DNA of 64,000 nucleotides from positions 124,001-188,000 of the forward strand of contig JALDRB010000009.1 of the NCBI GenBank assembly GCA_031316155.1. The letters run 5' to 3'. This DNA comes from Candidatus Scalindua sp. (GTDB lineage Bacteria; Planctomycetota; Brocadiia; Brocadiales; Scalinduaceae). Positions 29,315-52,938 of this stretch are shown here, one piece after another. Made by a program: the position numbers and the translations under genes. Below the pieces are notes generated by a model that saw only the letters and a program-made list of their open reading frames with translations, had not been told where the DNA came from and did not search any database. Positions within the stretch are counted from its first letter, which is position 1. Each line of letters begins with the position of its first letter.

Positions 29315-29750
29315 AACAGTGATCCCTGTGCGTTTACGATTACGGACAAAAAAAGAATATGAGTTTACTCCATGAGTATAGAGGCAGACATAAACTCTTA
29401 TATTCCAGCAAGATAAATATTTAATGCTCGTGGATACTTTCTTGTAACGTGCAGTTTATAACTGATCAACCGGAAGGAAAATACAACTTAAAGAAGAGAA
29501 CAAATCATTTGTCTATACGGACAGGCGAACTTCTTTTTTTATACGATTTGTTTATTTTATTCACAATCCATTCATGATGAAAAATTCTCACTGCTACTAT
29601 GATATACTAAAACTGATTTGGTTTTCGGTTTTACTGGAAACCAAACCTTTGTTGCAGTTATACTCGCTCAATTCTATCTCGGATTTTATCCGAAAACTAT
29701 TATGAGATAAGTATAGCACCAAAATGGGGACACTCTTGAGATTCGACCGG
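29315..29750. other. Intergenic gap with a possible terminator
   Basis: About 435 bases without a gene. It holds the candidate minus-strand terminator near 29618. I saw no strict sigma-54 site for the gene at 28445-29314. Confidence 0.4.
29618..29646 (-). terminator. Possible intrinsic terminator after the STN/TPR gene
   Basis: TTTGGTTT and AAACCAAA form an 8-base stem with a 13-base loop. On the minus strand the stem is followed within about six bases by TTTT. It lies about 100 bases beyond the stop of the gene at 29751-31466. The stem is AT-rich, so support is moderate. Confidence 0.35.
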
Positions 29751-32227: not shown

Positions 32228-32559
32228 CCCGCAATTCCTCTATTACGCCCACAAAACCCTGTGCAGCGTTTACAACTTTAGGAAAAATTGTTCAATAAAA
32301 TTACCCCTGCTTACCTTTAGAACTCCAATTAATGCTCATAATTTGCATCACTTAATTGTGTATTGAATATGCTGTATAATTCCAATCAAGATCCATCAAT
32401 AACAATATTTCTCCATCAAAGAGCATATCCTTTCTGTCTATACACAGTGATTTTTAAGACTATTGAAATAAAATACAGCAAGCCATCTGGAGTCGATGGA
32501 GAATCCGTTTTCAATAATTGTTCACAATTTACCTTCTTGAACGGAAAAACATTCTACCT
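32228..32559. other. Intergenic gap
   Basis: 332 AT-rich bases between the response regulator stop and the TPR gene pair. I found no gene, strict sigma-54 site or strong stem-loop. Confidence 0.5.
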
Positions 32560-32934
32560 CTAGTTTTGCGACAAACCACACAGTATTCTTGTTATACCAT
32601 CTTTTATCTCTTGTAGTTTAAAAGGCTTATGAATTAATTCAATAACACCCAAGCTCATAGCTTCTTTTATTGTCTCTCCGGAACCATACGCAGTAATAAT
32701 AATAACATTTATATGCAAGTTATTTTTCTTTATCTCACGGATAAGTTGCAGGCCATCCATACCATGCATTCTTAGGTCTGTTATAAGCAAATCATACGGC
32801 GTCACCTTGAAACATTCTAACGCTTGAAACCCATCATTAGCAACATCGACGTTGTAGCCTTCTCCGGCGAGGCTCTCTTTTAAAACATATCTTAGTGTTT
32901 CTTCATCATCCACCAGTAAAATCTTGAAATTCAT
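32560..32934 (-). CDS. Single-domain response regulator
   Basis: The chosen start is the ATG at 32934 (MNFKILLVDDEE, preceded by AGGA), giving about 124 residues; an upstream ATG at 32997 would add an unrelated 21 residues that overlap the preceding gene. The receiver domain is intact: acidic pocket VDDEE, Asp in YDLLITDLRMHG, and the conserved lysine in IHKPFK. There is no output domain, so it acts by binding a partner. It follows a HisKA-only protein and an NtrC-type activator, suggesting a phosphorelay. Confidence 0.85.
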   Translation of the reverse strand: MNFKILLVDDEETLRYVLKESLAGEGYNVDVANDGFQALECFKVTPYDLLITDLRMHGMDGLQLIREIKKNNLHINVIIITAYGSGETIKEAMSLGVIELIHKPFKLQEIKDGITRILCGLSQN

Positions 32935-32959
32935 TTCATGGTTTCCTAGAGACAAAACA

Positions 32960-33442
32960 TTACCTGTGAGAGAAAGCCCTAAAAAGATCTTTCGCAACTC
33001 TTTCCAGATTATCTATTTCTTTAAAAATCATCTTAAAAAACTTTTCATTTGTATCACTTGTCTCAACCTTTTCTCTAAGCACCTCCACAGCAGCAGAAAT
33101 ACCGGACAATGGATTACGTATCTTATGCGTTATAACACCAATCAACTCATTTAACTCATTAAAGAATTCTGATTCTCTGTATTTATCTGCTATTTCTCTT
33201 ATTCTATCATCATCACTTATATTCATACCAAACTTGCTCTTTTCCTCTGTATACAGAAGTTGTCTATTCAACGCAAAATCCAAGTCATCTTTTGAAATCA
33301 AACTTAAATCTATTAATATCCCGCCTAAAAGTTTACGATGAGAAGACATCTTTTGCATTGATAAAGCCGATTCTAAATCCTCCAGACAAACCTTCCCTTC
33401 ATCAATCAGGATCTGTCCTAGTTTTTTCTCAAATGTATTCAC
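32960..33442 (-). CDS. MshEN-like plus HisKA protein lacking an ATPase domain
   Basis: The 160-residue protein starts at a GTG behind AAGGGG. Residues 5-60 contain two MshEN/GspE-N type motifs (KLGQILIDEGKVCLEDLESA and LLGGILIDLSLISKDDLDFA). Residues 95-155 form a HisKA dimerisation domain with the phospho-acceptor in VITHKIRNPLSG. No HATPase domain follows; the frame stops after FRAFSHR. It may receive phosphate from another kinase and pass it to the adjoining regulator, or be a truncated kinase. The same MshEN-like motifs occur in CheA at 44138. Confidence 0.78.
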   Translation of the reverse strand: MNTFEKKLGQILIDEGKVCLEDLESALSMQKMSSHRKLLGGILIDLSLISKDDLDFALNRQLLYTEEKSKFGMNISDDDRIREIADKYRESEFFNELNELIGVITHKIRNPLSGISAAVEVLREKVETSDTNEKFFKMIFKEIDNLERVAKDLFRAFSHR

Positions 33443-39499: not shown

Positions 39500-40033
39500 A
39501 TGACAATAACAACCACGATGTATGATAATGTTATAAAAGAAATTGTAGATTCTACTCAGGAAATATTCGCAACTATGATACCGGTGGAGATTACAGCCGG
39601 AGAATCTTTTTACCAAAAGGAAGAAAACATAACGACTGACCTCATATCCCTCATCAGCTTCACAGGGGAACATTCAGGCATTATTGCACTTTTTTGCAAC
39701 AAGAATATTGCACTTAAAATCACTTCAAATATGTTGGGTATAGAGGTAACAGAACTACATCAGGACACAAAAGACGCTATCGGAGAAGTAACAAACATGA
39801 TAGCAGGCAGCCTTAAAAATAAAGTATGCGAAGACTTAGGCTCAATGCATCTTTCTATCCCGGTTGTCATAGGTGGAGCATCTCTCACAATATCTTCTAC
39901 ATGCAAAACTCATGCTGAGATATCTCTCCCTTCCGCAGTAACCTGTAATAGCCGGAGCACTTGGGTAATGTTGCCTTTTTCATCAGAAGGAGAAACCTTT
40001 AATGTCGGTCTTATAATCAAGAAGAACGATTAG
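39500..40033 (+). CDS. cheX: CheX-type phosphatase-like chemotaxis protein
   Basis: The 177-residue protein has a CheX/CheC fold pattern. It includes the catalytic E-x-x-N motif in AIGEVTNMIAGSLKNKV (about 93-109), preceded by SGIIALFCNKNIAL, and the final VGLIIKK strand. CheX proteins dephosphorylate CheY. A GGGAGG ribosome-binding site precedes the ATG. Lying between cheY and a CheC/REC fusion, it probably helps terminate the CheY signal. Confidence 0.85.
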   Translation: MTITTTMYDNVIKEIVDSTQEIFATMIPVEITAGESFYQKEENITTDLISLISFTGEHSGIIALFCNKNIALKITSNMLGIEVTELHQDTKDAIGEVTNMIAGSLKNKVCEDLGSMHLSIPVVIGGASLTISSTCKTHAEISLPSAVTCNSRSTWVMLPFSSEGETFNVGLIIKKND

Positions 40034-40095: not shown

Positions 40096-41091
40096 ATGAC
40101 CTTATCTACAAAAACAATTAGCTGTCCACCAAGGGTAAAATCACTTATAGATACTACATTAAGTAAATTGAACCAGGATTGCACTAATCTGATTGGCAGA
40201 AATCTTGGTATCTCAAAACCTAATTTCGATATCATTACTCTTCAAAAATTTTTTGCAAATAATGAAGGAAAATTCTTCCTGATAAAATCAGAAATTGAGG
40301 ATTCGTACGAGGGAAATATCTGTACTATCATGCAGCTGCAGGACGGCATTAAGATTGGAGGAGCACTTCTCGGATACGATGACAGCCAGATAAAGGAGAA
40401 AATAGTAAAAGAAGAGCTAGATGAAGATTGCCTTGATGGTCTGAAAGAATTTGGCAACCAGTTTACCGGTATCATTGACAATGTATTTAGAAACAAACTA
40501 CCCAAGTCCGTACACATAAAGCTGTCAACATGCACACTCATAAACAAAGAAAACGCAAAGGATATTTTCCCAAATTTAATTAACGACGACTATATGCAAC
40601 TTTCCTCTCTCCTCCTCATTAAAGGCTTTGAAACAGGACAGTTCAACATATTTATACAAATAGACTTAATTGAAGATTTCTTTGGAGAACAGATACACGA
40701 AAAAACCACAAACGTTCTTATCTTAGACAATTCACCAACAGATATAAAAACAATTAAAAGATACCTAGTCAATACTGAATTCAAATCCCTCATTACCAAT
40801 AACGCAACTGAAACTTTCGCCCTTCTTCACAAGGAAAAGATACACTTGATTCTTATCGATGTAACCTTGCCGGAACAAAGTGGCATCGAAATATGCAAAA
40901 AAATAAAAAAGACACCGTATACAAAGAGCATTCCCGTCATAATGACTTCTTCCAAACCAACTGAAGCATCCGTAATCATGTCTTTGGAGGCAGGAGCAAA
41001 AAACTTCCTGGTAAAACCATTTACAAAACCAACACTCTTACAAAAAATAAACAAATATAAAACCAAAAAAAAACAAACAGTTTTATTTTAA
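40096..41091 (+). CDS. CheC/CheX-like domain fused to a receiver domain
   Basis: The 331-residue protein has an N-terminal CheC-like region (about 1-195) with one E-x-x-N motif in LKEFGNQFTGIIDNVF. A receiver domain follows (about 208-325; Asp in LILIDVTLPEQSG, lysine in FLVKPFTKP). The acidic pocket is LDNSPTD rather than the usual D-D pair. It may be a phosphatase whose own receiver is a substrate or regulator. The ribosome-binding site is weak. I know of CheX-REC fusions in general but not a named subfamily. Confidence 0.75.
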   Translation: MTLSTKTISCPPRVKSLIDTTLSKLNQDCTNLIGRNLGISKPNFDIITLQKFFANNEGKFFLIKSEIEDSYEGNICTIMQLQDGIKIGGALLGYDDSQIKEKIVKEELDEDCLDGLKEFGNQFTGIIDNVFRNKLPKSVHIKLSTCTLINKENAKDIFPNLINDDYMQLSSLLLIKGFETGQFNIFIQIDLIEDFFGEQIHEKTTNVLILDNSPTDIKTIKRYLVNTEFKSLITNNATETFALLHKEKIHLILIDVTLPEQSGIEICKKIKKTPYTKSIPVIMTSSKPTEASVIMSLEAGAKNFLVKPFTKPTLLQKINKYKTKKKQTVLF

Positions 41092-43492: not shown

Positions 43493-44095
43493 ATGAACGA
43501 GAATAATAAGGAATGCCAGAATATCAATTCTGAAATTAATGATTTTGCATTAGACATTAAAGAAGATTCAGAAATATTCCTTGAGTTCTTATCAGAATCA
43601 CACGACCATCTTGAAGAATCTGAAAACAACATCCTTAACATAGAAGAAGGTTCATGTGACCAGGAACTGATTAACGCCATCTTTAGAAATATCCATAGTA
43701 TAAAAGGAAGTGCAGGCTTTCTCGGCCTGACCGATATGCAAAGACTTAGCCATGAACTGGAGACTCTTCTTGACAAAGCCAGAAAAGGAGAAATTAATAT
43801 TACCAAGGAAATAATTAGCCTATGCCTTGAATCAATAGACATTCTGAGAACACTAAGAGACAATCTGGCGCTAAAAGTTAATAAAGTCCTGAGAAAAGAC
43901 AATGTTTCGATTGCTATCTCGGAACAAGCTGTAGACATTCAACCATTAATAAATAATATTTTATCAATTATGAATGGGGAACCAAATCATTATTCTCAAA
44001 ATCCTGAAGCCCCTATCACTTCATCATCAGAAGAAACCGGCAACAAATCCACAGTTTATAAATCTGAAAAAGAATATTTGGAAATTTCTTACTGA
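43493..44095 (+). CDS. cheA: CheA, N-terminal part with Hpt (P1) domain (frame interrupted)
   Basis: The 200-residue frame encodes a CheA P1 domain (about 22-130) with the phospho-acceptor histidine in IFRNIHSIKGSAGFLG. A linker follows and ends in a stop at 44093-44095. The gene at 44138 is in the same frame. Between them the third frame (44071-44121) encodes an MshEN-like repeat, RIFGNFLLSKGIITQEQ. Adding one A in the A5 run at 44067-44071 and removing one C at 44122-44123 joins everything into one CheA. A separate Hpt protein is the alternative reading. Confidence 0.85.
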   Translation: MNENNKECQNINSEINDFALDIKEDSEIFLEFLSESHDHLEESENNILNIEEGSCDQELINAIFRNIHSIKGSAGFLGLTDMQRLSHELETLLDKARKGEINITKEIISLCLESIDILRTLRDNLALKVNKVLRKDNVSIAISEQAVDIQPLINNILSIMNGEPNHYSQNPEAPITSSSEETGNKSTVYKSEKEYLEISY

Positions 44096-44137
44096 GCAAG
44101 GGCATTATCACCCAGGAACAGCCTCGACAGGGCTCTC

Positions 44138-45574
44138 ATGCAAAAAGGGAGAAAAATAGGGCAAATTCTTGTAGAAAACGGAATATTAACGCAGGATGTC
44201 ATTGACAAGGCCATTGAGGAACAGAAACAGCAATTGTGGATACCTTTAGGAGAACTCCTTGTCCAAAAAGGAAAAATTACACAACATCAACTCAAAGACA
44301 CCCTGAAGCAACAAAAGAGGAAGTTGGGAGAGATATTGGTAGATAATGGCTATGCCACCCCAGAAAAAATTACCAATGCCTTAAATGCTCGACAGGCACT
44401 AAAAGGACAATCGAGGACAGTTAAGGTAGACACGAACAAACTTGACAATCTGTTTGACCTTGTAGGAGAACTCGTAATAGCTAATACCCTGATCTCCGGA
44501 GATATGAAATCGATTGGTAACAAGGGGAACGGTGCGAGCAAAAACCTTTCGCACCTGTCCAAGATAACAAAGGATATCCAGGATCAGGTGATGTCAATGA
44601 GAATGGTATCTTTAAAGCAGACATTCCAAAAGATGACAAGGCTGGTAAGAGACGTAGCCATGCATGCCAACAGAAAGGTAAAACTGATTATCTCTGGTGA
44701 AGACACAGAACTAGACAAGAACGTCATAGAAGAAATCTCAGATCCGCTCGTACACATACTCAGAAACTCAGTAGACCATGGTATAGAATCACCAGAGTCG
44801 AGGATTGCTTGTAATAAACCAATAGAAGGAACGGTCAAGTTAAGCGCTTATCATAAAGGTGGAAACATAATCATAGAAATTGAAGACGATGGAAAGGGAT
44901 TACAAAGGGACAAGATATTAAGGAAAGCTGTAGATAAAGGTATCATAAAGGAACAATCGGCATTAAGTGATCATCAGATCATCAATTTAATTTTCTCTCC
45001 GGGCCTGTCTACTGCAGAAAAAGTGACCAACATCTCGGGACGCGGCGTAGGTATGGACGTAGTTAAGAAAAATATAGAAAAGCTTCGCGGCAAGGTAGAA
45101 GTTACTTCAAGAGAAGGAAAAGGTTCTACATTTACCATAAAGCTACCGCTGACTCTCGCTATTATTGATGGCATCGTCGTCAACGTGGGAAATACAAAAT
45201 ACATTATACCGACTGTCAATATAGAAGAATCATTACGCCCAAAAAAAGAAGAAATATGTACTATTAAGAACCAAGGTGAAGTCGTCAACATGAGAGGAAA
45301 ACTGTTCCCTCTTGTTCGACTGCATAAGATTTACAATATTGAAACAACTAAGACAGATCCATGGGAAGCCATCGTCGTTGTTGTAGAATCAGAAGACGGC
45401 AAATTCAGTATCCTGGTTGATGAACTTGTAGGCCAGCAACAGGTTGTAATAAAGAGTCTTGGAGACAAATTTAAGGGTATAAAAGGTATTTCAGGAGGTG
45501 CTATCCTGGGCGACGGGAAAGTAGGCCTGATCTTGGATATTAGCGGAATAAGAGAAGCATCCCTTGCCGCATGA
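44138..45574 (+). CDS. cheA: CheA, MshEN-like repeats plus kinase and CheW-like domains (frame interrupted upstream)
   Basis: The 478-residue frame begins with three MshEN-like repeats (RKIGQILVENGILTQDVID, IPLGELLVQKGKITQHQLKD and RKLGEILVDNGYATPEKI, within 1-90). It continues with the CheA P3 dimerisation helices (DNLFDLVGELVIANTLI), the P4 ATPase domain with N box (LRNSVDHGIESP), G1 (EDDGKGLQ) and G2 (GRGVGMDVVKKNIEKLRG), and a P5 CheW-like domain (about 345-470). The ATG at 44138 lies inside a repeat, so it is probably not the natural start. MshEN domains are known to bind c-di-GMP, so the kinase may respond to it. Confidence 0.88.
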   Translation: MQKGRKIGQILVENGILTQDVIDKAIEEQKQQLWIPLGELLVQKGKITQHQLKDTLKQQKRKLGEILVDNGYATPEKITNALNARQALKGQSRTVKVDTNKLDNLFDLVGELVIANTLISGDMKSIGNKGNGASKNLSHLSKITKDIQDQVMSMRMVSLKQTFQKMTRLVRDVAMHANRKVKLIISGEDTELDKNVIEEISDPLVHILRNSVDHGIESPESRIACNKPIEGTVKLSAYHKGGNIIIEIEDDGKGLQRDKILRKAVDKGIIKEQSALSDHQIINLIFSPGLSTAEKVTNISGRGVGMDVVKKNIEKLRGKVEVTSREGKGSTFTIKLPLTLAIIDGIVVNVGNTKYIIPTVNIEESLRPKKEEICTIKNQGEVVNMRGKLFPLVRLHKIYNIETTKTDPWEAIVVVVESEDGKFSILVDELVGQQQVVIKSLGDKFKGIKGISGGAILGDGKVGLILDISGIREASLAA

Positions 45575-45766: not shown

Positions 45767-46249
45767 ATGGAATCAATAACAACAGATAGAACTGTTGATG
45801 AAGGTAAGTTTTTGACATTTGTCTTAAGTAATGAAGAATATGGTATTGAGATACTCAAGGTGAGAGAAATCATCGGCATTATCGGCATTACACCCGTACC
45901 ACAGACTCCCAATTACCTGAAAGGCGTAATTAATCTGAGAGGAAAGGTAATACCCATAATAGATCTGAGACTGAAGTTCTCCCTGCCGGAGGAAGAGTAT
46001 ACACAAGAAACATGTATAATAGTTGTAGAAGTCCACAATGCACAGATCGGTGTCGTGGTTGACAAAGTCTTTGAGGTCATTGATATTAAGAGACAAGATT
46101 TGGAAGAAACTCCTCAATTTGGTCAGGAGATGGATACAAATTTTATTATGGGATTAGGCAAGGTAAAGGAAAAGATAATCATCCTGCTCGATATTGACAA
46201 GGTGCTATTATCTGAAGAATCAGAGATGATTGATGAATTAACGAAATAA
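45767..46249 (+). CDS. cheW: Chemotaxis adaptor CheW
   Basis: The 160-residue CheW domain protein has [20 protein letters not shown], the [20 protein letters not shown] core and the final [15 protein letters not shown] strand. CheW links receptors to CheA. An AAGGAGAAAG site precedes the ATG. It lies 192 bases after cheA and is followed by the second receptor gene. Confidence 0.95.
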
Positions 46250-48781: not shown

Positions 48782-49270
48782 ATGATTCATAATAACAGCG
48801 ACAATATTATTACCGTAGGTGTTGGAGACTTAAAAATAGCTAATTTTCCTAAGACATTACAGACAAGTCTTGGCTCATGTGTGGGTGTTGTATTGTATGA
48901 TAATACAAAAAAAACTGGAGGCATACTACATCTTATGCTGCCAAAGTGTAAAAATAGAAATGGTAGATTAAGCAAATACGCCGATACTGGAATACCTTTA
49001 TTAATTGACTTAATGGTAAATAAGGAAAGGGTAAACAGAAATTTCTTGACAGCAAAAATCTTTGGTGGAGCAAAGATGTTCAGTGTAAACAGTGATATGT
49101 TTGATATTGGAAAATCAAACATCATAGAAACGAAAATAATCTTAGAAAAAATGAACATAAGGATTGTTGCAGAAAGGACAGGTGGTGCAAATGGCCATCA
49201 AATCTCCTTAGATACAACCACTGGCATCGTCCAAAGTCGTATATTTGGACATCCTACACTGAAATACTAA
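48782..49270 (+). CDS. cheD: Chemoreceptor glutamine deamidase CheD
   Basis: The 162-residue protein has the CheD catalytic pair: cysteine in TSLGSCVGVVLYD and histidine in GGILHLMLPK. The family-typical AKIFGGAKMF and RTGGANGHQISLD follow. CheD deamidates receptor glutamines and in many bacteria is controlled by CheC/CheX proteins, two of which are encoded upstream. It begins 79 bases after the receptor gene. Confidence 0.93.
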   Translation: MIHNNSDNIITVGVGDLKIANFPKTLQTSLGSCVGVVLYDNTKKTGGILHLMLPKCKNRNGRLSKYADTGIPLLIDLMVNKERVNRNFLTAKIFGGAKMFSVNSDMFDIGKSNIIETKIILEKMNIRIVAERTGGANGHQISLDTTTGIVQSRIFGHPTLKY

Positions 49271-49375
49271 CTGCCAATTGAGAAATTCGGATAAAAGATT
49301 ACGGAATAGAAGAATTTCGTTTTAAATGATGAATATATCAAAAGAACACGTGAGGATTTTGGATATCATTTTGAA

Positions 49376-50227
49376 ATGGACAAGGAAAATGCAATGCAAC
49401 CTATCTTATCAAACAGAGAATTTGAACTTTTCAGAAACCTGATTTACAAGACTTGTGGAATAAACCTCGCACCATCTAAAAAAGAATTAGTGAAATCGAG
49501 ATTATCGAAACGTCTTACACATACAGGAATCAATTCATTTGAGGAATATTACAGGTTTGTAACAAAGATTGACAAGTCCGGACAGGAAATGATCCACCTT
49601 CTTGACAGTATATCAACAAATAAAACAGACTTTTTTAGAGAAAAGAAACACTTCGAGTTTCTCAACACAAAACTCTTACCGGAGTTGATTACAAAAAAGG
49701 AAAAGGATAGAAATAAAAAACTCCGCATTTGGTGTGCGGCATCTTCTTCAGGAGAAGAGCCTTACACCCTGGCTATGACTGTATTAAACCATGTAAATCC
49801 CGAAAACGGGTGGGACATAAAGATTCTCGCTACAGATATCTCTACAAAGATTTTACAAAAGGCCATAAGTGGTGTTTACAAGAAAGAAACGGTCAGAGAT
49901 GTCCCACTAAGATTACTGGCCTCACACTTTGCACGAGTGTCCGTTAACAATTCTACCTATTATAAGGCAAGAGATCATCTCAAGCAGCTCATAACATATA
50001 GAAGATTTAACCTTATGACTCCAGAATTTCCATTTAAAAATCCTTTTGATTTTATCTTTTGCAGAAATGTAATGATATACTTTGACCCTGAAACCCAGCA
50101 AAGACTGGTTTCTAAATTCTACGATTGTTTACCAAAGGGAGGCTATCTTTTCATTGGCCACTCCGAAACATTGTCAAGAAGGGTAAGTAAATTTAACTAT
50201 ATTCAACCCGCACTTTACCAGAAATAG
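49376..50227 (+). CDS. cheR: Chemotaxis receptor methyltransferase CheR
   Basis: The 283-residue protein has the CheR N-terminal helical domain (EFELFRNLIYKTCGINL) and the methyltransferase domain with the S-adenosylmethionine motif WCAASSSGEEPYTLAM, ILATDIS and FIFCRNVMIYFDPETQ. It methylates receptor glutamates, and the C-terminal FMDF/FRDF motifs of the two receptors could recruit it. It stops 18 bases before the GGDEF gene. Confidence 0.95.
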   Translation: MDKENAMQPILSNREFELFRNLIYKTCGINLAPSKKELVKSRLSKRLTHTGINSFEEYYRFVTKIDKSGQEMIHLLDSISTNKTDFFREKKHFEFLNTKLLPELITKKEKDRNKKLRIWCAASSSGEEPYTLAMTVLNHVNPENGWDIKILATDISTKILQKAISGVYKKETVRDVPLRLLASHFARVSVNNSTYYKARDHLKQLITYRRFNLMTPEFPFKNPFDFIFCRNVMIYFDPETQQRLVSKFYDCLPKGGYLFIGHSETLSRRVSKFNYIQPALYQK

Positions 50228-50245: not shown

Positions 50246-51799
50246 ATGAAATTCATACTCCCGTTAATAGTGGTTGCTACGCTTTTCAACATCGGTATTT
50301 ACCTCTTAAACAGTTCATCTCCGGCAAATAACGCCCAAACAAAGGGAGACTATTATACCTACAAAACACCCGATAACACTATCTGGCTTAATACGGACAA
50401 AGAGGCTTTGCGCCGATTGAGAAGCCATTATATTCGAGAAAACAACAATAAAAACAATATAGTCATAAGCCTGGAAGCCGAAAAAGAACAGATAATACCT
50501 TATGACCTCCTTGATCCTCAAACACAAAAAAAAATCGCCTCAACCTACAATCTTTGCATCAGAGAAAGCGGTGCTGGAGAGCGCAGGAGCTTTCATTTTA
50601 TTATTTGCATGATATTTAACACCTTAATTATTTCTACAGGTTTTATACTTTCTTATATATTCTACACTAAACGACCTACTGAAAATCCCAATAAAACTTC
50701 TAAAATCAGAATCCCAGAAAAAAGTAAAGACAGTCTCGAACATCCGAAAGAGACTCAGAAAAACATTCAGGTTCTCAATAAGGCTAAAGAGATTATATGT
50801 GAAATACTTCAGAACATAACCAGATATTCCGATAACTGTTTCATACCAAAGAGTAAGAAACTTGAAGAATTTACCAACAATCAAATCCCAAAGATCGGGT
50901 CTTCGTTGACCATAGAAGAATTTCTTACTCTTGAAGATGAAATAAATAAGATAATTCCATCACATTTTGAAACAGTAAGAAAATTAATACAAACAAAATT
51001 TGATGAATTAAAGACATTAATTAATAGTTTCGCCGAAGACTTGGGAGCAATAACCAAGGACAATACCGATTTTTCAGGCCAAATTAAATCCAGTATCTCT
51101 CACATTGAAAAAGCAATTGAGCTGGATGAAATAATAGAAATACGCCGGAATATAACAAAAGAAGTTGTTAAAATGGGGAAAAATATCATACATAAACAAG
51201 AAAGAGACTGTAAAATTATCAAGACATTAACACGCAAGGTACAATCACTTGACAAAGAACTTGTCATCGCTAAAGAAGAAATCCTGATTGACGGACTTAC
51301 TCAAATCGCAAACAGAAAAGCCCTTGACAGAAAGTTAGCAGAAGCCATCAATTCTAAATCAAAAACCAGAAAAACCTTTACACTGGTTATGGCCGACATA
51401 GATTATTTTAAAAATATCAATGATACCTATGGGCACATAGTGGGTGATCAGGTTCTGAAGAAGGTATCAGCCACCATTACAAAAAATTTCAGATTAAATG
51501 ATTTTGTAGCTAGATACGGGGGTGAAGAATTCGCAATCATCCTAGACAGGATTAGTAAGCAACACATACAATATCTGTGTGAAAGGCTTCGGTCTGACAT
51601 TGAATCCCTTGACTTCAGGATCAACTCCGAGACAATTCCAATTTCAATAAGTATTGGTGTGGCGTTTTGCGGAAGTGCAGACACAATAGAAACGTTATTA
51701 TATCGAGCCGACAAGACACTGTATTTAGCAAAGAAAAGTGGAAGAAATAATGTAAAGACAGAAGAACAACTGATGCCAGCGGCGGCTGTTAACATTTAA
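50246..51799 (+). CDS. Membrane diguanylate cyclase (GGDEF) in the chemotaxis operon
   Basis: The 517-residue protein has an N-terminal span (about 3-22), a short periplasmic part (about 23-115), a second span (about 117-137) and a helical region (about 180-340). A GGDEF domain (about 350-505) carries the active-site motif YGGEEF and an RLND I-site five residues before it. It should make cyclic di-GMP under feedback control. A GAAAGGGGAG site precedes the ATG. Placed between cheR and cheB, it links chemotactic signalling with c-di-GMP, which fits the MshEN repeats on CheA. Confidence 0.9.
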   Translation: MKFILPLIVVATLFNIGIYLLNSSSPANNAQTKGDYYTYKTPDNTIWLNTDKEALRRLRSHYIRENNNKNNIVISLEAEKEQIIPYDLLDPQTQKKIASTYNLCIRESGAGERRSFHFIICMIFNTLIISTGFILSYIFYTKRPTENPNKTSKIRIPEKSKDSLEHPKETQKNIQVLNKAKEIICEILQNITRYSDNCFIPKSKKLEEFTNNQIPKIGSSLTIEEFLTLEDEINKIIPSHFETVRKLIQTKFDELKTLINSFAEDLGAITKDNTDFSGQIKSSISHIEKAIELDEIIEIRRNITKEVVKMGKNIIHKQERDCKIIKTLTRKVQSLDKELVIAKEEILIDGLTQIANRKALDRKLAEAINSKSKTRKTFTLVMADIDYFKNINDTYGHIVGDQVLKKVSATITKNFRLNDFVARYGGEEFAIILDRISKQHIQYLCERLRSDIESLDFRINSETIPISISIGVAFCGSADTIETLLYRADKTLYLAKKSGRNNVKTEEQLMPAAAVNI

Positions 51800-51861: not shown

Positions 51862-52938
51862 TTGGAGAACAAGACAAAAGTATTGATAATCGACGATTCT
51901 GCAGTAATCAGAAAGATACTGTCTGTTTCCCTAAATAAATATAAAGACATTGAGGTAGTTGGAACTGCGCCAGATCCATTTATAGCCAGAGACAAAATCT
52001 TAAGCCTAAAACCTGACGTCCTCACCCTAGATGTAGAAATGCCAAGAATGGACGGACTTACCTTCTTAAAAAAGATAATGACATTTCACCCCATACCAAC
52101 AATCATGGTAAGTTCATTATCACAAGATGGCGGTGATGTAACCCTAAAGGCATTAGAAATTGGAGCTGTAGACTATATTGCAAAACCAAGTAACAGACTT
52201 TCTTGTGATGTAAAAAATATAATACATGATTTATACCAAAAAATCAAAACAGCATCCACAATAACAATGAGGAGAAATGATAATACAAAAATAAACCAGC
52301 ACAAGAGAACTGCTAACCAGACTTTCCCACCTAAATCAACACAGCCGCATTATACCATGTTTAAAGGAACAAACAAGATAATCGTAATCGGCGCGTCAAC
52401 AGGGGGCACAGAAGCTCTCAAAGAAGTATTGGTGCAAATGCCGGCAGATTCTCCAGGTATCGCTATTGTTCAGCATATGCCGGAAATTTTTACAAAAGCA
52501 TTTGCACAAAGACTTGATTCACTTTGTGCAATCAAGGTAAAGGAAGGAAAAAACGGAGACAGCCTAACACAAGGACAGGCAATAATAGCACCGGGTAATT
52601 ACCACATGAAACTGAGAAGAAATGGTTCAATGTATTACATAGAAACAAGTCAGGAAGAACGTGTACACCATCAACGACCTGCTGCTGATGTTTTGTTTGA
52701 CTCTGCTGCAAGATTTGCTGGCTTAAATGCAGTAGGCGTAATCATGACCGGTATGGGAGCAGACGGAGCCAGAGGCCTCTTAAAGATGAAAGAATCTGGT
52801 GCCAAGACAATAGCGCAAGACGAAGAAAGTTGTGTAGTATTTGGTATGCCAAAGGAAGCCATAAAACTGGGGGCGGTAGATAAAACAGTGACACTACATA
52901 AAATCCCGGAGACTATTTTTAGTTTCATACACAATTAA
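51862..52938 (+). CDS. cheB: Chemotaxis methylesterase/deamidase CheB
   Basis: The 358-residue protein uses a TTG start at 51862 behind AAAGGA. It has a receiver domain (about 4-120; Asp in VLTLDVEMPRMDG) and a methylesterase domain (about 170-355). The catalytic residues are serine in IGASTGGTEAL, histidine in VQHMPEIFTKAF and aspartate in GMGADGARGL. Phosphorylation by CheA activates demethylation of receptors. It is the last gene of the operon, ending 48 bases before a convergent kinase gene. Confidence 0.95.
   Translation: MENKTKVLIIDDSAVIRKILSVSLNKYKDIEVVGTAPDPFIARDKILSLKPDVLTLDVEMPRMDGLTFLKKIMTFHPIPTIMVSSLSQDGGDVTLKALEIGAVDYIAKPSNRLSCDVKNIIHDLYQKIKTASTITMRRNDNTKINQHKRTANQTFPPKSTQPHYTMFKGTNKIIVIGASTGGTEALKEVLVQMPADSPGIAIVQHMPEIFTKAFAQRLDSLCAIKVKEGKNGDSLTQGQAIIAPGNYHMKLRRNGSMYYIETSQEERVHHQRPAADVLFDSAARFAGLNAVGVIMTGMGADGARGLLKMKESGAKTIAQDEESCVVFGMPKEAIKLGAVDKTVTLHKIPETIFSFIHN

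Follow-up and report, generated by a model that had tools for sequence, protein, structure and literature searches.

A candidate c-di-GMP input to chemotaxis: MshEN-type repeats in a Scalindua CheA

In the CheA of a Scalindua-type (anammox) bacterium, four MshEN-type repeats of 24 residues lie between the Hpt and dimerisation domains, and control of the kinase by cyclic di-GMP (c-di-GMP) is the likeliest function of this region, where we infer that the messenger is bound. The gene is located in a stretch of 64,000 nucleotides from Candidatus Scalindua sp., which is referred to here as the window. The first-pass annotation had described four repeats at 44071-44420, and these were confirmed; repeats 1-3 stand in an open frame (44153-44392), and repeat 0 is obtained when two reading frames are joined (Table 1). 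Three lines of evidence agree, namely a curated profile, the search of a profile against the PDB and the comparison of folds, and the contact residues are largely kept, so that the MshEN-type identity is supported at the level of sequence and model, with a similarity far exceeding chance. The architecture is real, conserved and more common than was first thought, and it is already on record.

Table 1. Positions in the window of the cheA parts, the MshEN-type repeats and other che genes
Feature	Position	Strand	Evidence
cheX	39500..40033	+	Pfam CheX E 7.7e-21
N-terminal cheA part	43493..44095	+	ORF list; Hpt (P1) with HSIKGSA phosphorylation motif; stop TGA 44093-44095
MshEN-type repeat 0	44075..44146 (approx.)	+	(Y/I)(L/F)GNFLLSKGIITQEQ/LDRALMQK; three-frame translation, sister-species DNA alignment, intact in relatives
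C-terminal cheA part	44138..45574	+	478-aa ORF: repeats 1-3, H-kinase_dim (P3), HATPase_c (P4), CheW-like (P5)
MshEN-type repeat 1	44153..44224	+	KIGQILVENGILTQDVIDKAIEEQ
MshEN-type repeat 2	44243..44314	+	PLGELLVQKGKITQHQLKDTLKQQ; fold match to 5HTL
MshEN-type repeat 3	44321..44392	+	KLGEILVDNGYATPEKITNALNAR; 2-residue linker to repeat 2
cheW	45767..46249	+	Pfam CheW E 8.5e-40
cheD	48782..49270	+	Pfam CheD E 1.9e-24
cheR	49376..50227	+	Pfam CheR E 3.6e-61
Diguanylate cyclase gene between cheR and cheB	50246..51799	+	Pfam GGDEF E 9.4e-45
cheB	51862..52938	+	Pfam CheB_methylest E 8.7e-64

The kinase gene belongs to a che cluster of about 38.9 to 52.9 kb, which encodes in order a CheY-like REC protein, CheX, a REC protein, an MCP, CheA, CheW, another MCP, CheD, CheR, a GGDEF protein and CheB. 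Because FliM is encoded in the genome, the che system has a flagellar target. Across the interruption of the cheA frame, Pfam recovered the CheA domain order of Hpt (E 4.3e-17, residues 29-117 of the N-terminal ORF), H-kinase_dim, HATPase_c and CheW, and a genome-wide search for H-kinase_dim gave this match and no other, so that no second CheA was found. The CheY-binding P2 domain between the Hpt and dimerisation domains is optional in CheA; no match to it was obtained in the window cheA ORFs or in an intact relative (L007). Among the closest relatives that have a name are Ca. Scalindua sp., Ca. Scalindua rubra and Ca. Brocadiaceae S225, and a search of plasmids returned distant kinase cores only. 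Two further observations concern the cluster itself. Beside cheX, positions 40096-41091 of the forward strand encode a protein of 331 aa that ends in a REC domain and whose N-terminal part matched nothing in Pfam; this protein is present in all Brocadiales che clusters examined. Between cheD and cheR (49270-49376) there is no REC gene, and relatives (L127-L137) have one at this place.

The profile search against the MshEN family that the first-pass annotation had suggested was positive. NF053729 (c-di-GMP_motif, MshE-related), a 53-residue NCBIfam model of c-di-GMP-binding MshE-related sequences with a cut-off of 38 bits, scored 74.6 bits in the 478-aa ORF and 79.4 bits in a 100-aa fragment, with its best stretch (residues 36-83) spanning repeats 2 and 3. 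A phmmer search of the PDB with the 100 residues already found PilF, PilB and MshE, and a profile built from 29 CheA repeat regions returned PilF with E 4e-28, PilB with 1e-10 and MshE (5HTL) with 5e-9. Pfam PF05157 gave no match to CheA and matched five other proteins of the genome. In those proteins it lies beside the 53-residue motif model and does not cover it, so PF05157 is the wrong yardstick and was rejected as a criterion of membership. Matches to DUF4388 and FumaraseC_C were also rejected, as their scores fell below the respective cut-offs.

Structure prediction, likewise proposed at the outset, led to the same family. An AlphaFold model of 44138-44560, which is of moderate confidence (mean pLDDT 74; residues 41-80 at 86-89), had as its top PDB match in Foldseek the structure of MshE with c-di-GMP (5HTL, prob 1.00). 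Chain A of 5HTL was matched with an rmsd of 1.0 A over 56 columns and 32% identity; the Foldseek E of 0.22 is not significant alone, which may be expected with so small a domain. The next matches were also MshEN domains, those of PilB and PilF, and compared with 5HTL the predicted model has the four-helix bundle fold of MshEN_N. For the four-repeat region of L007, 5HTL was again the top match, with weak support from a low-confidence model (pLDDT 57).

According to the main text of Wang et al. (2016; PMC5013675), each motif of MshE contacts c-di-GMP through its first Arg, an LG pair, two later Leu and a final Gln, and the linker of the motif pair is 5 residues long. The two-motif contact pattern of MshEN_N (R/L/G/L/L/Q) was found in the window CheA. 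Its linkers measure 2 residues between repeats 0 and 1, 6 between 1 and 2, and 2 between 2 and 3, and therefore only pair 1-2 comes close to the geometry of proven binders; in the other MshEN pairs that the genome was found to encode, the linkers are of 5-7 residues. The contact positions of pair 1-2 read K-I-G-I-I-Q and P-L-G-L-L-Q. Each of the six hydrophobic contacts is filled by a hydrophobic residue, and R9 is replaced by K and R38 by P. When the exchanges of R9 to K and of L to I are treated as conservative, one of the 12 contact positions (R38) departs. Pair 2-3 departs at two contacts, with Pro for R9 and Arg for Q61. Pair 1-2, the closest to the proven geometry, is thus the best candidate for a c-di-GMP site as judged from sequence. 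The c-di-GMP input envisaged in the first-pass annotation is favoured for the middle pair by its contact residues and near-standard linker, and is less certain for pairs 0-1 and 2-3 with their linkers of 2 residues. In most other Scalindua-family CheA proteins, outside the genus of the window, all linkers are of 1-2 residues, so that c-di-GMP binding is less certain there. A separate observation was made in Brocadiaceae CheA loci (L106, L110 and others), where the inter-motif linker of this putative ligand-binding module is Gln/Gly-rich (QGQGQG) and apparently polymorphic in length.

Considering these results, we have proposed, with moderate confidence, a model in which an MshEN_N module in CheA would serve as a c-di-GMP receptor controlling kinase output. 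The receptor module would occupy the site where many CheA proteins carry P2. Repeats 1 and 2 (44153-44314) would fold as an MshEN four-helix bundle and bind one c-di-GMP, and repeats 0 and 3 may extend this bundle. Binding would close the bundle and change the access of the P1 phospho-acceptor to the kinase core P4, and the c-di-GMP level would therefore set how much phosphate is passed to CheY and CheB. The messenger could possibly be raised locally by the cyclase of the operon, and the cell could in this way lower or freeze its flagellar steering on committing to a surface or an aggregate. Sequence does not predict whether the effect would be activating or inhibiting. Several points stand against the model: the short linkers 0-1 and 2-3, the Pro at R38, the Arg at Q61 of pair 2-3, the absent PF05157 part, the interrupted frame, and the lack of the cyclase in one Scalindua-family locus (G009) and outside that family despite the presence of repeats. 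A more elaborate version, in which the four short-linked repeats, in contrast to an MshEN pair standing alone, would form a continuous solenoid with half-sites shared between neighbours or between the chains of the CheA dimer, giving a cooperative switch with several c-di-GMP molecules fed by the operon cyclase, is in our opinion a long shot.

The diguanylate cyclase that the first-pass annotation had placed in the operon is real, with a YGGEEF active site and an RLND I-site just upstream of it, and is conserved in most Scalindua-family genomes. It lies between cheR and cheB in seven of eight Scalindua-family loci (the window, G001, G004, G006, G010, G012 and G015) and is absent from G009 and from the four Brocadiales loci examined outside the family, where repeats are present. 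The architecture with four repeats and the cyclase in the operon both belong to this one family, which may reflect a single evolutionary event; the two are separable, because G009 has no cyclase. Genome-wide, 11 GGDEF and 11 PilZ matches were found, and other c-di-GMP sources and receptors therefore exist. These matches, together with the missing cyclase in repeat-bearing che operons of G009 and of other Brocadiales, are consistent with a cyclase that is unrelated to CheA and serves PilZ proteins and pili, with CheA following the global c-di-GMP pool or nothing. We regard this reading as a credible contender, against which stands the conserved placement of the gene between cheR and cheB.

It is also possible, if rather doubtful, that the repeats are a retired MshEN module, which would be a structural or docking helical spacer between P1 and P3 that replaces P2 (for example in CheY/CheB docking) and does not bind c-di-GMP. 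The linker of the P3-proximal pair ranges from 1 to 8 residues across relatives, and with the linkers of 1-2 in most Scalindua CheA proteins this suggests that the pair geometry is not strictly kept. The failure to find P2 in the window CheA or the intact relative fits such a spacer as well, and the main text of Wang et al. (PMC5013675) documents that binding has been lost in relatives of MshEN, XpsE among them. However, in a count over the P3-proximal motif pair of 44 CheA proteins, the c-di-GMP-contact Gly residues were kept throughout (G11 and G40, each 44/44) and the contact Gln residues in 80-91% (Q32 35/44, Q61 40/44), beside freely varying positions, the two preceding the Gln having an entropy of 2.4-3.0 bits versus 0.5-1.0; XpsE has lost such residues. 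In addition, the fold match is to c-di-GMP-bound MshE, and the middle-pair linker of the window appears to fall within the proven range.

The frame interruption raises the question of whether the gene is intact. Both cheA ORFs are in one frame, and what separates them is the TGA at 44093-44095 plus a short stretch in a shifted frame. Repeat 0 is broken by two compensating frame shifts, at about 44068-44082 and about 44118, some 40 nt apart; in three-frame translation the joined frames rebuild it as FGNFLLSKGIITQEQ (frame of 44062) followed by LDRALMQKGRKIGQ (frame of 44060). In the sister species (G001), the homologous cheA is one 675-aa ORF with repeat 0 intact, to which the N-terminal window ORF is homologous over 171 aa, and a DNA alignment showed that part of the shifted stretch is identical in the two. 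Comparison of about two dozen further genes with the sister species showed nearly all of them to be unbroken, and the assembly is therefore not generally error-rich. Either a local error or a recent lesion may have caused the break. Among the records examined there was no near-identical strain with an uninterrupted cheA, the sister species being at 80% protein identity. The in-frame TGA, the two nearby shifts, the otherwise unbroken genes and the own ATG at 44138 of the 478-aa ORF, which would keep repeats 1-3 and the kinase core, could point to a recent pseudogene or a split kinase (a P1 protein and a P3-P5 protein), but we consider this improbable: no other CheA was found in the genome, the operon is otherwise intact, and partial DNA identity in the shifted stretch is what one would expect if the sequencing or the assembly were at fault, or if the lesion were very recent. 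If it were so in this strain, the c-di-GMP question would be absent here or differently shaped.

Some observations were made elsewhere in the window. A 160-aa protein encoded on the reverse strand (32960-33442) has an MshEN pair at its N-terminus (linker 7; NF053729 at 40.7 bits against a cut-off of 38) and, behind it, a HisKA dimerisation domain, without an ATPase domain. It is conserved in the sister species, and its gene adjoins NtrC-type and REC genes. A 145-aa REC ORF at 32419-32949 (reverse strand) resembles a 384-aa ORF of the sister species, and the similarity extends past the window stop; it may be another gene that is broken or truncated. At about 29600-29719 lies a dispersed repeat, about 113 bp long, with about 40 matches in the genome, most of them at 84-95% identity, and about 45 in the sister species; Rfam had no match to it.

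NF053729 matched 60 of 102 CheA interdomain regions, which were collected by similarity to the window protein and are thus not a measure of prevalence. Judged by the titles of their records, the matches belong to Planctomycetota, Desulfobacterota, Nitrospirota, Zixibacteria, Omnitrophota and others. A repeat-plus-P3 profile gave matches reaching into the repeats in 19 of the 147 Planctomycetota genomes drawn. CheA has four repeats in the Scalindua family, mostly two in other Brocadiales and three in one outgroup. The first-pass statement that no CheA with such an arrangement had been described did not hold, since many relatives carry the fusion and the main text of Wang et al. (2016; PMC5013675) names CheA, along with CheX, among the partners of MshEN; the MshEN-CheA fusion is therefore not new. 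There the same domain combination was recognised by sequence, and the main text contains no functional test of it. No experiment on an MshEN-CheA protein was found in the literature searched, which covers few subscription journals. What is new is in the detail: four repeats, linkers of 2-6-2, a middle pair that alone comes close to the proven geometry, the lack of P2, and the operon cyclase.

The MshEN domains of ATPases of the MshE, PilB and GspE type, as presented in the main text (PMC5013675; 5HTL), have 24-residue repeats of the form RLGxx(L)(L)xxG..xxxxLxxxLxxQ with equal contact residues, and the predicted four-helix fold of the window protein superposes on 5HTL. In contrast to these domains, the window CheA has four repeats instead of two and linkers of 2-6-2 instead of 5, lacks the PF05157 part, and is fused to a chemotaxis kinase. 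The closest worked-out parallel is NfrB of E. coli, an MshEN effector to which one diguanylate cyclase, DgcJ, is dedicated (PMC8669469); NfrB, however, is a glycosyltransferase with a C-terminal MshEN and not a chemotaxis protein. In the available text of the respective reports, c-di-GMP also enters chemotaxis through the chemoreceptor Cbp1 with PilZ (PMC6454048) and through CheY-like motor regulators (PMC5677366), but at the level of the receptor and of the response regulator, with other folds and not in CheA.

Should the repeats bind c-di-GMP, this messenger would have a point of action at the kinase, where the phosphorelay starts, in addition to those at receptors, CheY-like proteins and the motor. 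As several phyla have CheA proteins of this architecture, a binding result from one fragment would inform a broad class. Furthermore, the che-operon cyclase of the Scalindua family would offer a natural case of local c-di-GMP signalling.
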